In this document: positions 21,877-31,689 of the stretch, one piece after another
How positions within the stretch are numbered: position 1 is the stretch's first letter
How the letters are laid out: each line of letters begins with the position of its first letter
Origin: an uncultured Traorella sp.
GTDB lineage: Bacteria; Bacillota_I; Bacilli_A; Erysipelotrichales; Erysipelotrichaceae
Length of the DNA stretch: 60,133 nucleotides
Assembly: GCA_944324265.1 (NCBI GenBank)
Contig: CALUVS010000008.1
Location: forward strand, 1 to 60,133
Direction of reading: 5' to 3'
Notes under the pieces: generated by a model
What the model was told of the DNA's origin: nothing
Seen by the model: the letters and a program-made list of their open reading frames with translations, nothing else
Databases searched by the model: none
Made by a program: the position numbers and the translations under genes

Positions 21877-22101
21877 ATGATCCAAGTACATTTGAAGGAA
21901 ATATTAAAGGACAGGAAGATGACAAATAAGGAACTGGCAGAAAAAATTGATATTACCGAAGCAAATTTAAGCATATTATGCAGCGGCAAAGCGAAGGCAG
22001 TGCGCTTTTCTACTTTAGAGAAAATCTGTGAAGTGCTTGAATGTGATGTAGGCGACATATTGAAATATGTCGATGAAAACGGGGAAGAGAAGAATTTATG
22101 A
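21877..22101 (+). CDS. Small Cro/CI-type HTH regulator (YozG-like)
   Basis: A 74-residue protein made almost entirely of an XRE DNA-binding fold (MTNKELAEKIDITEANLSIL, SGKAKAVRFSTLEKIC, CDVGDIL). Members paired with DUF2975 proteins are thought to autoregulate their operon. Its last codons (GEEKNL) recur at the end of the first lipoprotein (EEEKNL), marking the junction of a duplicated DNA segment. The stop overlaps the next start (ATGA). Confidence 0.85.
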   Translation: MIQVHLKEILKDRKMTNKELAEKIDITEANLSILCSGKAKAVRFSTLEKICEVLECDVGDILKYVDENGEEKNL

Positions 22102-22811
22102 AAAAAAGAAATATAATAATCAGCTGCTTATGTTTCTGTTTGTTTGGCTGTGCAGAAGCACAAATCAATGTGAATGAACCAAGTTCTGTCAATATGGCAG
22201 AAGAACAAGATGTATATATTGCGCAGGCAGCTTTAAATGATGAGGAAAAAGATTTATTGGAGCTTGTCAGCGGTGATCGAAAGATTTCTATTTGGGATTA
22301 TCAGACAGATGAAAGCATTCAAACAATGTGGATCACTGCTTTTTATCTCAATGATCAGGGAGGATGGGAAAGGCTGACTGGTTTTGGAGGAACTATAGAC
22401 GAAAAGACTATCCAGGGCAGAATGGCCATACTATTGGATGATTTAGATCAAGAACAGGAAATTGTTTATTCTTATAAATACGAGGATGAAGTTACTGGAG
22501 AAATTATTAGTTCGAAAGCATCGTGGAAAGGAGCTTATTTCGCACAGTTTCCATTTGAAGGCGGGGCACAAGGTTATGCAGTCAACGATACTTTGCTCAC
22601 AGAACAAATCAGTGATCAAGAGATTCCATTAGTTATGTTATATGGTTCAAAAGACGGTGTCTTAGCCACTCCTGATTTCAATGATTTTGAGAACCCGGAA
22701 GAACTGATTGAAATGAATTATGACTATTGCTATGTCATCACGGTTGAGTTTTCGACAATGTCACTTGATGAATATGAGACTGCTCAAAAAGAGGAAGAGA
22801 AGAATTTATGA
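22098..22811 (+). CDS. Lipoprotein, copy 1 of a tandem array
   Basis: A 237-residue secreted lipoprotein. Signal peptide with lipobox LFGC, mature Cys at residue 18. Residues 1-45 are nearly identical to the next two genes (mature start CAEAQINVNEPSSVNMAEEQ). After that the copies diverge but keep landmarks: IWD-x-DES near residue 75, AILLDDLD, GAYF, IPLVMLYGS and DYCYVITVEFS near the end. No known domain is recognised. It overlaps the HTH stop by 4 bp and overlaps copy 2 in the same way, so it is part of a coupled operon. Confidence 0.85.
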   Translation: MKKRNIIISCLCFCLFGCAEAQINVNEPSSVNMAEEQDVYIAQAALNDEEKDLLELVSGDRKISIWDYQTDESIQTMWITAFYLNDQGGWERLTGFGGTIDEKTIQGRMAILLDDLDQEQEIVYSYKYEDEVTGEIISSKASWKGAYFAQFPFEGGAQGYAVNDTLLTEQISDQEIPLVMLYGSKDGVLATPDFNDFENPEELIEMNYDYCYVITVEFSTMSLDEYETAQKEEEKNL

Positions 22812-23523: not shown

Positions 23524-24159
23524 ATGAAAAGAAAAAAAATAATAATCAGCAGTTTATGTCTATGCTTGTTTGGCTGTGCAGAAGCACAGATCAATGTAAA
23601 TGAACAAAGTTCTGTCAATATGGCAGAAGAACAAGATGTATATATTGCACAGGATGTTTTGAATACGGATGAACAAAAATTATTGGATTTAGTTAAAGGG
23701 AAGAGAAATATTACGATTTGGGATCTTCATGCAGATGAAAGTATTCAAACGATGCGTTTGCTTATTTATGCTTATCAAAATGATGCATGGGAGGAAAGAG
23801 AAATTACTGTGATGGAGAATATTCCTTCAAAAATGGCTGTTTTGTTAGATGATTTCAAAGATGATCAAGAATTTGTCTTTACATTCAATGAGAAAGAAAA
23901 TAGTCAACTTATGATAAGCAGCAAATGTTTTGAAGAGGCTTATATAGAAAATTCTTCTCATGGATATGAAATCAACAATGTTTTATCATTAGAACAAAAA
24001 GTCAATCAGCCAATTCCGCTCATCATGTTATTTGGATCAGATGAAAGTTATATCTCTAATCCGGGTTTTCAAGCCATTTCAGAACCTGAGAGAATAACTG
24101 AAAGAAATTTGGATTATTGTTATGTTATTTCTGTGGAGTTTTTGAATCATGAGGTGTAA
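23524..24159 (+). CDS. Lipoprotein, copy 3 of a tandem array
   Basis: A 211-residue paralogue and the most diverged of the three, yet the first 42 residues again match almost exactly (one Pro to Gln change in the mature start). It keeps IWDLHADES, MAVLLDDF, IPLIMLFGS and LDYCYVISVEF. It follows copy 2 after 32 bp with its own ribosome binding site. Confidence 0.83.
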   Translation: MKRKKIIISSLCLCLFGCAEAQINVNEQSSVNMAEEQDVYIAQDVLNTDEQKLLDLVKGKRNITIWDLHADESIQTMRLLIYAYQNDAWEEREITVMENIPSKMAVLLDDFKDDQEFVFTFNEKENSQLMISSKCFEEAYIENSSHGYEINNVLSLEQKVNQPIPLIMLFGSDESYISNPGFQAISEPERITERNLDYCYVISVEFLNHEV

Positions 24160-28054: not shown

Positions 28055-29029
28055 CTACTTCATCAAAACAGTAGTTTCACTGTTTAATATTTCTTCCGGT
28101 ATTTCAATACTCAAAGCATCAGCTGTTGTTTCATTGATATAAGTAAATAGATTTTCATCGAATACTTTGACAGGAATATCGGCAATATCCGTACCTTCCA
28201 AAACAGCTGCAATCATTCTGGCAGTTTCACGTCCCAATTCTTCATAGTTGATGCCTACACTGGCAAATCCACCGTCAGATACCATTGAATCTGCTCCGAC
28301 AAATATCGGACAAGACAAATCAATGCTTACTTTATTCAAGGCATCGATTCCGCTGGCAATCGTATTATCATTCGGTGCAAAGATGGCATCGCACTGCTGT
28401 GCTAAAGCAGAAGCAACGGTCATGATCTCACCGACATTGGCAACGCTCATCTCAATCAATTCAATATCATTTTCTTCGCAATAGGCTCTTGTCTTCGCCA
28501 GATTAGAAACTGAATTGGCTTCAGAAGCATTATAGATAAAGCCCAAGGTATTCAGATCAGGAATTATTTGATTCGCAAGATCTAAAATCTGATCCACCTG
28601 TATTTCATCACTTGTTCCGGTCATATTATGATTTGGATGATCTAAGTCATCCATAAGTCCCGCCTGCACAGGATCTGAGACAGCAGAGAAGATCACCGGT
28701 ACATCTTCGGCATATGGAGCCGCTGCCATGGCGGTCGGAGTAGCAATAGCAACAATCATATCTACTTCATTGCCGACATAGGTCTGCATGATGCTTGTCA
28801 GATTATTGGGTTCATTTTGGGCGTTTTTATAATCAATAGTGATATTCTCACCTTCAACATAGCCTAAAACAGCTAACTCATCAATAATTGCTTCACGAAT
28901 TGTATTCAGAGAAGGATGTTCCACAATTTGTGCCAGACCAATTGTAATCAGTTCATTCTCTTTCGCACATCCGCTTAATGCAGTAAAACACAAACAAATA
29001 CTTAACATAAAACTTCTCATCTTTTTCAT
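28055..29029 (-). CDS. ABC importer substrate-binding lipoprotein, TrpX-like (PF04392)
   Basis: About 324 residues with lipobox LSGC (mature Cys near residue 20). The body matches the PF04392 binding-protein family: IGLAQIVEHPSLNTIREAI, VDMIVAIATPTA, VPVIFSAVSDPVQAGL, FAPNDNTIASG, GIDYEELG-like GINYEELGRETA. Characterised relatives bind tryptophan or tyrosine. The ATG at 29029 follows GGAGGAGAAAG; the frame continues to 29044 through that site. A T-box leader precedes it, so amino-acid supply controls the operon. Confidence 0.88.
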   Translation of the reverse strand: MKKMRSFMLSICLCFTALSGCAKENELITIGLAQIVEHPSLNTIREAIIDELAVLGYVEGENITIDYKNAQNEPNNLTSIMQTYVGNEVDMIVAIATPTAMAAAPYAEDVPVIFSAVSDPVQAGLMDDLDHPNHNMTGTSDEIQVDQILDLANQIIPDLNTLGFIYNASEANSVSNLAKTRAYCEENDIELIEMSVANVGEIMTVASALAQQCDAIFAPNDNTIASGIDALNKVSIDLSCPIFVGADSMVSDGGFASVGINYEELGRETARMIAAVLEGTDIADIPVKVFDENLFTYINETTADALSIEIPEEILNSETTVLMK

Positions 29030-29077
29030 AACTTTCTCCTCCATCAGTTAGAGTTTGCTTTGAATTTGTGTCTTAAT

Positions 29078-29124
29078 AAAAAAACGCTTGCCCCTGAAGA
29101 AAAAATCTTCTCTAAGGACAAGCG
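29078..29124 (-). terminator. T-box terminator
   Basis: CGCTTG...AGAAGA pairs with TCTTC...CAAGCG on the minus strand and is followed by seven T. Confidence 0.88.
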
Positions 29125-29355
29125 ATTGATTCACCTGCGGTACCACCTTAATTGATGTTCTCACATCCACTTTTCAAAATGCAAACACATTTCTGTTCGA
29201 TAACGGGAACTTCCGTACACAGATACTCGGATGACTCCTTTCCCCATGTCCCTTGAAGGGCCATTTACATGTCCGCATTTCCATCAGGGTTCCACCAATC
29301 CCCAACTCTCTTTGAGCGCGCTGCATGCTTGATTTCCTTCGCAACGGTTTAATTT
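29078..29355 (-). promoter_or_regulatory. T-box riboswitch for the amino-acid ABC importer
   Basis: Minus-strand leader with the T-box hallmark GGTGGTACCGC (29146-29136), the distal stem I motif AGAGAGTTGGGGATTGGTGG near 29308-29289, a CCGTTATCG-like stem III region and a strong terminator. Stem I base appears to be GAAGG/CCTTC. Opposite it the loop reads TAAATGGC at about 29267-29260, containing either TGG (Trp) or ATG (Met). The importer family favours Trp. Uncharged tRNA should stabilise the antiterminator and switch the operon on. Confidence 0.9.
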
Positions 29356-29429: not shown

Positions 29430-29502
29430 CACATAATCTTAAAATACTTCACATAAAGCCACACAAAAGAAACGTATTAAATAGAAACTTTTAGGGTATA
29501 TT
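29430..29502 (+). promoter_or_regulatory. Promoter of sRNA 1 with phased CACATAA boxes
   Basis: CACATAA at 29430 and 29450 and CACACAA at 29460 precede a TATATT -10 at 29497-29502. The last two boxes are 10 bp apart, and exactly 30 bp separate the last box from the -10. The -35 is poor, as expected for an activator-dependent promoter. Confidence 0.6.
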
Positions 29503-29507
29503 ATAGA

Positions 29508-29630
29508 CAAGCAAGATAAGACTTGCTTAGAAACAGATAATCCCTCATTTGTTTCAATTCATATTTTATCCCCTTTATAATAATTAAGTTAAGTTGGTAA
29601 AAGAAGCATGACCCCTGATGCTTCTTTTAC
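29508..29630 (+). ncRNA. Small RNA candidate 1 (C-rich, terminator-ended)
   Basis: Order: 5' hairpin AAGCAAG/CTTGCTT (29509-29528), a mostly unpaired core beginning TAATCCCTCATTTG and containing TATCCCCTTT, then a terminator stem AAGAAGCAT/ATGCTTCTT (29601-29626) whose loop is GACCCCTG. No open reading frame with a ribosome binding site. The core matches the second copy about 215 bp downstream almost base for base. The exposed CCCC motifs suggest pairing with G-rich Shine-Dalgarno sequences. Confidence 0.65.
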
Positions 29631-29663
29631 TTTGTACAGATATAAATAAAAAATATAGACAAT

Positions 29664-29716
29664 CACATAAATCCACATAATCAAAAGATATTCATAACAC
29701 ATCTTTCTTGTATTAT
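29664..29716 (+). promoter_or_regulatory. Promoter of sRNA 2 with phased CACATAA boxes
   Basis: CACATAA at 29664 and 29674 (10 bp apart), 30 bp, then TATTAT at 29711-29716 preceded by TTG. The geometry is identical to the sRNA 1 promoter. Confidence 0.6.
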
Positions 29717-29721
29717 AAAGT

Positions 29722-29836
29722 CAGATAAGGAAAAGACCTTATCTGATGAAAATAATAATCCCTAATTTGTTTTCATTCATATTCTATCCCCTTATAAATA
29801 AGCAAAAAGAGCGTTACCCCTAGACGCTTTTTTTGT
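29722..29836 (+). ncRNA. Small RNA candidate 2 (paralogue of sRNA 1)
   Basis: 5' hairpin CAGATAAGG/CCTTATCTG (29722-29745), core beginning TAATCCCTAATTTG and containing TATCCCCTT, then terminator stem AGCGT/ACGCT extended by A/T pairs (about 29804-29834) with loop TACCCCTAG and a long T-run. The outer hairpins differ in sequence from sRNA 1 while pairing is kept, and the unpaired core and CCCC loops are conserved, which points to selection on RNA structure. Confidence 0.68.
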
Positions 29837-29871
29837 TTATAACAAATCTTTAAAATATTCTCTTTATCTAC

Positions 29872-29943: not shown

Positions 29944-31689
29944 ATGAAAAAAGGAATTATTTTATCACTTTCTGCATTCATGGCGCTTAGTTTGGGTGCC
30001 TGCTCAAATACGCAGACTCCGGCAGCCAGCTATACAGCTGGTACTTATTCAGCAACTGCCAGAGGTATGAATGGTGATGTAGAAGTGGAAGTGACATTCA
30101 GTGAGAATGCCATTGACAGTGTTGTTGTAAAAAATCATTCAGAAACTTATGGTGTCGGCTATGGATTGGATACTTCACCAATTGAAATATTGCCGAACAA
30201 AATTGTAGAAACACAATCATTGGGTGTGGATACAGTGACAGGTGCTACGATTACAAGCAATGCGATTCTGAACGCGGTCAGCGATGCAGTGGAACAAGCT
30301 GGCGGTGATGTTGAGGCATTGAAGGCCGTGGAAGTTGCCAGTGATGAACAAGATCTGACATTGGATACAGATGTTGTCGTTGTCGGTGCGGGAGCTGCCG
30401 GGTTATCTGCAGCTATTGAAGCAAGCAATGCCGGTGCAGATGTTGTTGTATTGGAAAAACAAGGAATTATCGGCGGTTCCACAACTTTGAGCGGAGGTAA
30501 GCTGTTGGCGGCAGGTACAAAATATCAGGAAGCACAAGGATTCAGCGGTGATACACCAGACGCATTATTTGATTATTTAAAGAGTGTCGGCGGTGATTGG
30601 ATCGATGATGAAAAACTGCATGAATTTACAGATAATGCTTTGGAAGATGTTAACTGGCTGGAAGATATGGGTGTACAGATCATCAATGTTGAACCTATTC
30701 ACTCTTCTATTACACCTTGGCGTGTTATGAATACACTGGGAGGCGGCGGCCAGACAAGCGGACATGGCGGGCAGATCTCAGTTCCTCTTTATAATACTTT
30801 CAAGGAAACAGGCTCAGAAATTGTCTACAATGTTTCTGTCAATGAAATTTTAATGAATGAAGGCAAGGCCAGCGGTGTTGTAGGTACTACACCGGAAGGT
30901 CATACCGTGACAGTCAATGCGAAGGCTGTTATTATCGCGACAGGCGGTTATGCACAGAATCGTGAAATGATGGCTCATTTAGGCATTGAAAACTACAATA
31001 CAAGTGTACCGAAAGGAAATGTCGGTGATGGTGTCAAGATGGCGGAAGCAGTCGGAGCTCAAGTATTTGAAGCACCGGGAGCACAGGCAGTCTATGTAAG
31101 CAATACAAGCGGTGTAGGTATCAATGAAGAAAGCGGATTGATCGTCAATGATTGCGGCGTTCGTGTTGTTGATGAATGGACATATCAATCTCATGTTGCC
31201 ACTGCATTAGTCAACGATGGTTCTCAGAAAGCATGGTACATTGCTTCTGCTAATGATCCATACCCAACTGTTCAATATGCCATGACGTTAGATTCTACAC
31301 TGAAAGCTGAAACACCAGAAGAATTAGCTGAATTAATGGGCGTTGATCCTCAGACATTTGCCGATCAGGTAGCTCGCTACAATGAAATGTGTGCGAACGG
31401 TGTAGATACAGAATTCAATAAATCGGCAGAATACATGATTCCTGTGGAAGGAACATTATATGCGATTGAATTATCTCCAGCCTTTACCGTAACATTCGGC
31501 GGCTTAGTTACTGATTTGGATTCTCGTGTATTAGACAATGACAATAATCCAATCCCTGGTTTATATGCAGCAGGTGAAGTAGCATTCACAGGTTTATTTG
31601 GTGATGAATATCCTAGCTGCGGTTTAGCAATTGGTTCTGCAGTACGCTTTGGACGCATTGCCGGGACAAATGCTGCACAGGAACAATAG
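29944..31689 (+). CDS. Secreted FMN/FAD reductase (fumarate reductase flavoprotein-like lipoprotein)
   Basis: 581 residues. Lipobox signal LGAC (Cys about 20), an FMN_bind domain (residues 30-115) with flavinylation motif VTGATITSN, then an FAD_binding_2 domain starting DVVVVGAGAAGLSAAIEA near residue 143. It should sit outside the membrane and pass electrons from covalent FMN through FAD to an organic acceptor. The C-terminal region reads FGDEYPSCGLAIGSAV where fumarate reductases have NRLGGNA, so the substrate may not be fumarate. The neighbouring malic enzyme and fumarase still suggest dicarboxylate metabolism. Good ribosome binding site AAAGGAG. Confidence 0.88.
   Translation: MKKGIILSLSAFMALSLGACSNTQTPAASYTAGTYSATARGMNGDVEVEVTFSENAIDSVVVKNHSETYGVGYGLDTSPIEILPNKIVETQSLGVDTVTGATITSNAILNAVSDAVEQAGGDVEALKAVEVASDEQDLTLDTDVVVVGAGAAGLSAAIEASNAGADVVVLEKQGIIGGSTTLSGGKLLAAGTKYQEAQGFSGDTPDALFDYLKSVGGDWIDDEKLHEFTDNALEDVNWLEDMGVQIINVEPIHSSITPWRVMNTLGGGGQTSGHGGQISVPLYNTFKETGSEIVYNVSVNEILMNEGKASGVVGTTPEGHTVTVNAKAVIIATGGYAQNREMMAHLGIENYNTSVPKGNVGDGVKMAEAVGAQVFEAPGAQAVYVSNTSGVGINEESGLIVNDCGVRVVDEWTYQSHVATALVNDGSQKAWYIASANDPYPTVQYAMTLDSTLKAETPEELAELMGVDPQTFADQVARYNEMCANGVDTEFNKSAEYMIPVEGTLYAIELSPAFTVTFGGLVTDLDSRVLDNDNNPIPGLYAAGEVAFTGLFGDEYPSCGLAIGSAVRFGRIAGTNAAQEQ

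Follow-up and report, generated by a model that had tools for sequence, protein, structure and literature searches.

Predicted tandem C-rich small RNAs of Traorella belong to a multicopy family of Erysipelotrichaceae with a shared, putative regulator box

What is the function of two adjacent genes for short RNAs with exposed C-rich stretches in the gut bacterium Traorella (Erysipelotrichaceae), and what switches them on? The pair is located in a window of 60,133 nucleotides (the whole stretch of DNA that was analysed), where it is flanked by a set of ABC-transporter genes (minus strand) and by a flavoprotein gene (plus strand). The twin units with C-rich loops noticed in a preliminary description are both present: unit 1 has a minimum free energy (MFE) of -33.7 kcal/mol and unit 2 of -36.7 kcal/mol, and 0 of 200 shuffles folded as well in either case (z-scores in Table 1). 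Both follow one plan: a first hairpin (hairpin 1), a second (hairpin 2) whose loop contains UCCC(U), an unpaired linker with ATTCATATTYTATCCCCTT, and a terminator hairpin that carries ACCCCU in the loop. The same description had placed four motifs in one unpaired core. This holds for the ATTCATATTYTATCCCCTT stretch, but not for TAATCCCT and ATTTGTTT, which form the loop and 3' arm of hairpin 2. Neither unit reaches the gathering score of any Rfam 15 model. We read the pair as tandem paralogues, probably trans-acting sRNAs of ~120 nt, from a family missing from Rfam 15 at that score.

Table 1. Features of the sRNA pair and its promoters in the Traorella window.
Feature	Coordinates	Strand	Basis or remark
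Extra CACATAA, 20 bp before first half-site	29430..29436	+	read directly
Unit 1 regulator box TCACATAAAGCCACACA, two half-sites 10 bp apart	29449..29465	+	start 48 bp before -10 start
-10 of unit 1, TATATT, poor -35	29497..29502	+	read directly
sRNA unit 1	29508..29635	+	fold z -5.5; R1 match 105 bits, copy itself part of R1 model
Unit 1 hairpin 1	29509..29528	+	fold and alignments
Unit 1 hairpin 2, loop with UCCC	29530..29555	+	fold and alignments
Unit 1 linker, unpaired, contains ATTCATATTTTATCCCCTT (complement of SD plus AUG)	29556..29595	+	sequence, fold
Unit 1 terminator hairpin, ACCCCU in loop, T-run after	29596..29635	+	fold and alignments
Unit 2 regulator box TCACATAAATCCACATA	29663..29679	+	start 48 bp before -10 start
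-10 of unit 2, TATTAT	29711..29716	+	read directly
sRNA unit 2	29720..29838	+	fold z -8.4; R1 match 113 bits, copy itself part of R1 model
Unit 2 hairpin 1	29720..29747	+	fold, 57-copy alignment
Unit 2 hairpin 2, loop with UCCCU	29748..29774	+	fold, 57-copy alignment
Unit 2 unpaired linker ATTCATATTCTATCCCCTT	29775..29799	+	fold
Unit 2 terminator hairpin, ACCCCU in loop	29800..29838	+	fold, 57-copy alignment

Tandem relatives were detected by DNA similarity search in Traorella species and in Dielma. A covariance search over relatives, proposed earlier, was conducted with a model (R1) built from ten Traorella/Dielma copies and matched 140 of 245 genomes of the order at E 0.1 or better, nearly all of them Erysipelotrichaceae. 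Many of the matching genomes carry 2–5 copies, arranged in tandem in Traorella, Dielma, Anaerorhabdus, and others, and the R1 search recovered a third copy in the same genome as the pair (G000:C3:5961-6084). The gene neighbours of the copies differ between genera and often point in the opposite direction; such unrelated neighbours argue for action in trans. The hairpin arms had been described as differing in sequence while pairing is kept, and the alignments bear this out. Across 57 copies, each of the 32 base pairs shows changes on both of its sides (548 cells versus 148 in shuffles) and the covariation score is 0.729 versus 0.07–0.12 for slid structures, in an alignment fitted to the model that therefore leans towards the tested structure. 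In a MAFFT alignment of 10 copies that was not structure-fitted, compensatory changes were found in 16 of 32 pairs.

A second model, R2, searched over 395 genomes of the class, recovered the family plus a few weak matches elsewhere. Those outside the family (f2, f4, and f17) lack the promoter box described below and were set aside as look-alikes or distant cousins. A conserved RNA beside an apparent rsmD gene, also outside the family and without the box, was observed at five loci (L170-L174, in G263, G284, G423, G482, and G441). It comprises a hairpin with AGAATCCCC(C)TATTCT, a linker CTTCTCCTCTCCCTTTCACA, and a terminator, and may represent a separate family of C-rich sRNAs.

Each unit is preceded by a box whose end lies 31 bp before the -10. 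The best box across 58 copies, TCACATAATTTCACATA, is a direct repeat with a 10-bp period; a weaker third repeat follows ~21 bp after its start, and all 57 tabulated sites have C at positions 4 and 14 of the 17-mer. The distance from box start to -10 start is exactly 48 bp in 45 of the 58 copies; in several of the other 13 the script chose an alternative -10, and the spacing partly reflects that choice. The fixed distance first read from the two Traorella promoters is kept over many genera.

A genome scan for phased boxes, likewise proposed at the outset, indicates that they are not random. The composite pattern (box, N31, and -10, with up to 3 mismatches allowed) occurs at 244 sites in 146 family genomes, versus 13 for a reversed control (sums of per-genome counts), and is present in 111 of the 146. 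Forty composite sites absent from the R1 listing were fetched for inspection. The majority precede short RNAs comprising a 5' hairpin, an unpaired stretch rich in pyrimidines, and a terminator, and some closely resemble R1 members (e.g., L268); four (L275, L277, L299, and L306) run into protein genes instead. Under a fixed rule that 55 of 57 known copies pass, an intrinsic terminator follows 28 of 39 non-R1 composite promoters versus 65 of 827 control -10 sites. Outside the sRNAs, box-only matches with 2 mismatches appeared randomly placed; a few preceded PTS genes. Since box, spacing, and -10 recur together and most such promoters head short, terminator-ended RNAs, it is probable that a single regulator controls a regulon of anti-Shine-Dalgarno sRNAs throughout the family. 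Several genera have a distinct subtype under the same box (L286-L289, L296, L298, L300, L301, and L304), whose CATAATCAAA(A)TTCCCTTTCTTAAAA core follows a hairpin with GAGCC or GACC.

The C-rich segments point to how these RNAs may act. CCC runs number 2.67 per copy among 57 copies, versus 0.84 in base shuffles, and GGG runs 0.07 per copy; 34 of the 57 copies have exactly three CCC runs. In the predicted folds, 141 of 152 CCC runs (93%) are unpaired versus 45% of all bases. The reverse complement of the linker, AAGGGGATAGAATATG, corresponds to a ribosome site with its start codon. We infer that the linker is an anti-Shine-Dalgarno (anti-SD)/anti-start sequence and that the sRNAs repress translation initiation by pairing with SD and start codon. 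Candidate targets with AAGGGGAT before ATG, from a pattern search that is weak and unreplicated, include two PTS components, and the genes flanking the units are not conspicuous as targets by duplex energy.

The preliminary description had likened the pair to sRNAs of the csRNA and RsaE type while recognising no family, and the Rfam results agree on both counts: csRNA (29–35 bits) and RsaE (23 bits) are the best sub-threshold matches of the units over the full model length. The csRNAs of streptococci are multicopy, are controlled by one response regulator (CiaRH) through a direct repeat, and carry an unpaired anti-SD/anti-start sequence and a terminator hairpin (PMC3091779); the Traorella units share this plan, with a single response regulator as the probable driver. 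The Traorella-family sRNAs differ in an extra 5' hairpin and a C-run in the terminator loop. LhrC of Listeria is likewise multicopy, responds to envelope stress via LisRK, and has three UCCC sites in loops and linker, with a promoter element upstream of -53 and no known LisR consensus (PMC4132741). By description, its three UCCC-type sites in loops and a single-stranded linker are matched by the Traorella-family sRNAs, but the Listeria lineage differs from Erysipelotrichaceae. RoxS/RsaE combines a C-rich loop with a C-rich linker, UUCUCCCAUCCCCUU, that blocks SD sites, under two-component activation by ResD/SrrA (PMC4409812); several C-rich regions in loop and linker are shared here, but the Traorella-family sRNAs are multicopy and often in tandem. 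The family can be viewed as analogous to CiaR/csRNAs or LisR/LhrC, and membership of either is not claimed.

Descent from csRNA or RsaE/RoxS would account for those sub-threshold matches and for the shared plan of C-rich loop, C-rich linker, and terminator, but it is improbable. The gathering score of csRNA (RF02379, 57 bits) was not reached by the best copy (35.4 bits) and was exceeded in 0 of 60 genomes; that of RsaE/RoxS (RF01820, 79 bits) was not reached by unit 1 (22.9 bits) and was exceeded in 0 of 60 relatives and 0 of 198 class genomes, in a search for which the B. subtilis control was positive. Moreover, chance csRNA and RsaE matches elsewhere in the same genomes score as high. The csRNA promoter also differs: the CiaR box TTTAAG-N5-TTTAAG (NTTAAG-N5-TTTAAG) lies ~10 bp before the -10, whereas in Traorella the repeat TCACATA-N3-TCACATA stops 31 bp short of it. 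Given sub-threshold scores for both families and a promoter unlike that of the csRNAs, we do not assign the units to csRNA or RsaE.

Two other readings would deny the units a role as sRNAs in trans, and both are very unlikely. In Traorella and Dielma, the linker complement reads as a good ribosome site with an ATG, such that AAGGGG-ATAGAAT-ATG on the minus strand might start a small protein; however, the frame in unit 1 stops at codon 3, 21 of 57 copies lack such an ATG and the rest have mostly unrelated frames of 2–41 codons, and promoter, box, and terminator are all oriented along the plus strand. A small open reading frame on either strand was rejected, since none is conserved among the 57 copies. 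The flavoprotein gene at 29944, adjacent and on the same strand, could be served by a cis-acting leader or attenuator, but each unit has its own promoter and its own terminator, and the differing, often opposed neighbours in other genera speak against it. Tandem trans-acting sRNAs remain the preferred reading of the pair.

Which protein binds the box? Direct repeats spaced by one helical turn point to a regulator of the OmpR type. The box was not found at any of the 10 OmpR-type regulator loci scanned in the same genome as the pair. Only two OmpR-type regulators are encoded in a small genome that bears the sRNAs (G072), and two genomes (G020 and G073) have neither an OmpR-type regulator nor the box, which may reflect base composition. 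The CssR-like regulator of G072 has a 61–78% identical orthologue in every examined genome with any OmpR-type regulator. Its DNA-binding domain scores 105 bits to CssR of B. subtilis (next best 62), with the recognition segment DRVVDDTLRRLRKK versus DRVVDDLVRRLRRK in CssR. In most genomes examined (L378-L390, order read from sequences), this response regulator and its kinase follow genes that we take to be cdaR (YbbR-like) and glmM, presumably in an envelope-related operon. The published CssR box, TTTTCACA, occurs as half-sites upstream of -35 in Bacillus subtilis CssRS (PMC6749698), possibly akin to the arrangement here. It agrees with the consensus half-site at 7 of 8 positions, and the copies average 5.8–5.9 of 8 versus 2.6 at random, a fit that sites of other regulators also attain. 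In the literature CssR activates htrA, htrB, and its own operon, whereas the box described here precedes sRNAs and the regulator is encoded after cdaR-glmM. Against this candidate, the cdaR-glmM-regulator stretches that were read show no box before its own operon, and genomes without a detectable box (G007, G134, G022, G170, G067, and G598) encode it as well. CiaRH and LisRK are also reported to control htrA in their hosts (PMC12826053), and a CssR-like activator would therefore be a parallel design.

Collectively, box spacing over many genera, composite promoters, and a conserved CssR-like candidate are consistent with the common response-regulator-like activator first postulated from two promoters, and we slightly favour the CssR-like regulator as that activator on these sequence comparisons. 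It is quite conceivable, and we hold it as a tentative alternative, that the same sRNAs answer to another activator: an OmpR-type regulator encoded beside dnaE, a ResD/SrrA-type regulator, or a member of another protein family. The ResD site, TTTGTGAAT, agrees with the sRNA box at 8 of 9 positions, as good a fit as that of the CssR site. RoxS/RsaE is itself under ResD/SrrA control (PMC4409812), and G007 and G134, which lack the box, also lack a close orthologue of the dnaE-neighbour regulator. However, the DNA-binding domain of the latter is nearest to RegX3/GlnR-type proteins and scores only 51 bits to CssR, the protein is less conserved (~44–57% identity where an orthologue is likely), and it is present in G022 and G170, both without the box.

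With a probability of about 0.75, we read the pair as tandem ~120-nt trans-acting sRNAs that are switched on by a response regulator, most likely the CssR-like one, and that block translation initiation at SD and start codon. Envelope or secretion stress would activate the response regulator, most likely the CssR-like one encoded after cdaR-glmM, which would bind the box upstream of -35 and switch on the whole sRNA set. Through their exposed CCCC stretches, the sRNAs would then base-pair at the Shine-Dalgarno sequence and start codon of each target mRNA and prevent translation from initiating, and the several copies and subtypes could jointly provide dose and target diversity. A wider and more speculative possibility is that a two-component system beside a c-di-AMP regulator and a peptidoglycan-precursor gene (cdaR-glmM) controls a family-wide regulon made up chiefly of several diverged anti-SD sRNA subtypes that share only promoter and plan, such that envelope stress would be answered largely by translational repression.

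No papers on these sRNAs were found in the open-licence literature searched, and the analysis provides an sRNA family and a putative family-wide regulon for gut bacteria from which that literature reports none of this kind. Erysipelotrichaceae would join streptococci and Listeria as lineages where a two-component system seems to act through multicopy anti-SD sRNAs. With the fixed promoter pattern, all members can be listed at once, and which stress system drives them can be tested directly by way of the conserved box.

Several other features were observed in the window. A T-box-like leader (AAGGTGGTACCGCAGGTGAATCA and stem), without an Rfam match at gathering score, lies at 29070-29350 on the minus strand, before a substrate-binding protein gene (28055-29044). 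A pair of lipoprotein-like paralogues (22098-22808 and 23524-24159) have nearly identical starts (...CLFGCAEAQINVNE...SSVNMAEEQDVY). At 1286-1607 on the plus strand, a skipping-rope RNA and a DUF3800-I RNA adjoin (Rfam matches); downstream of them lie the gene of a DNA-methyltransferase-like protein (4850) and further genes resembling a defence or restriction island.
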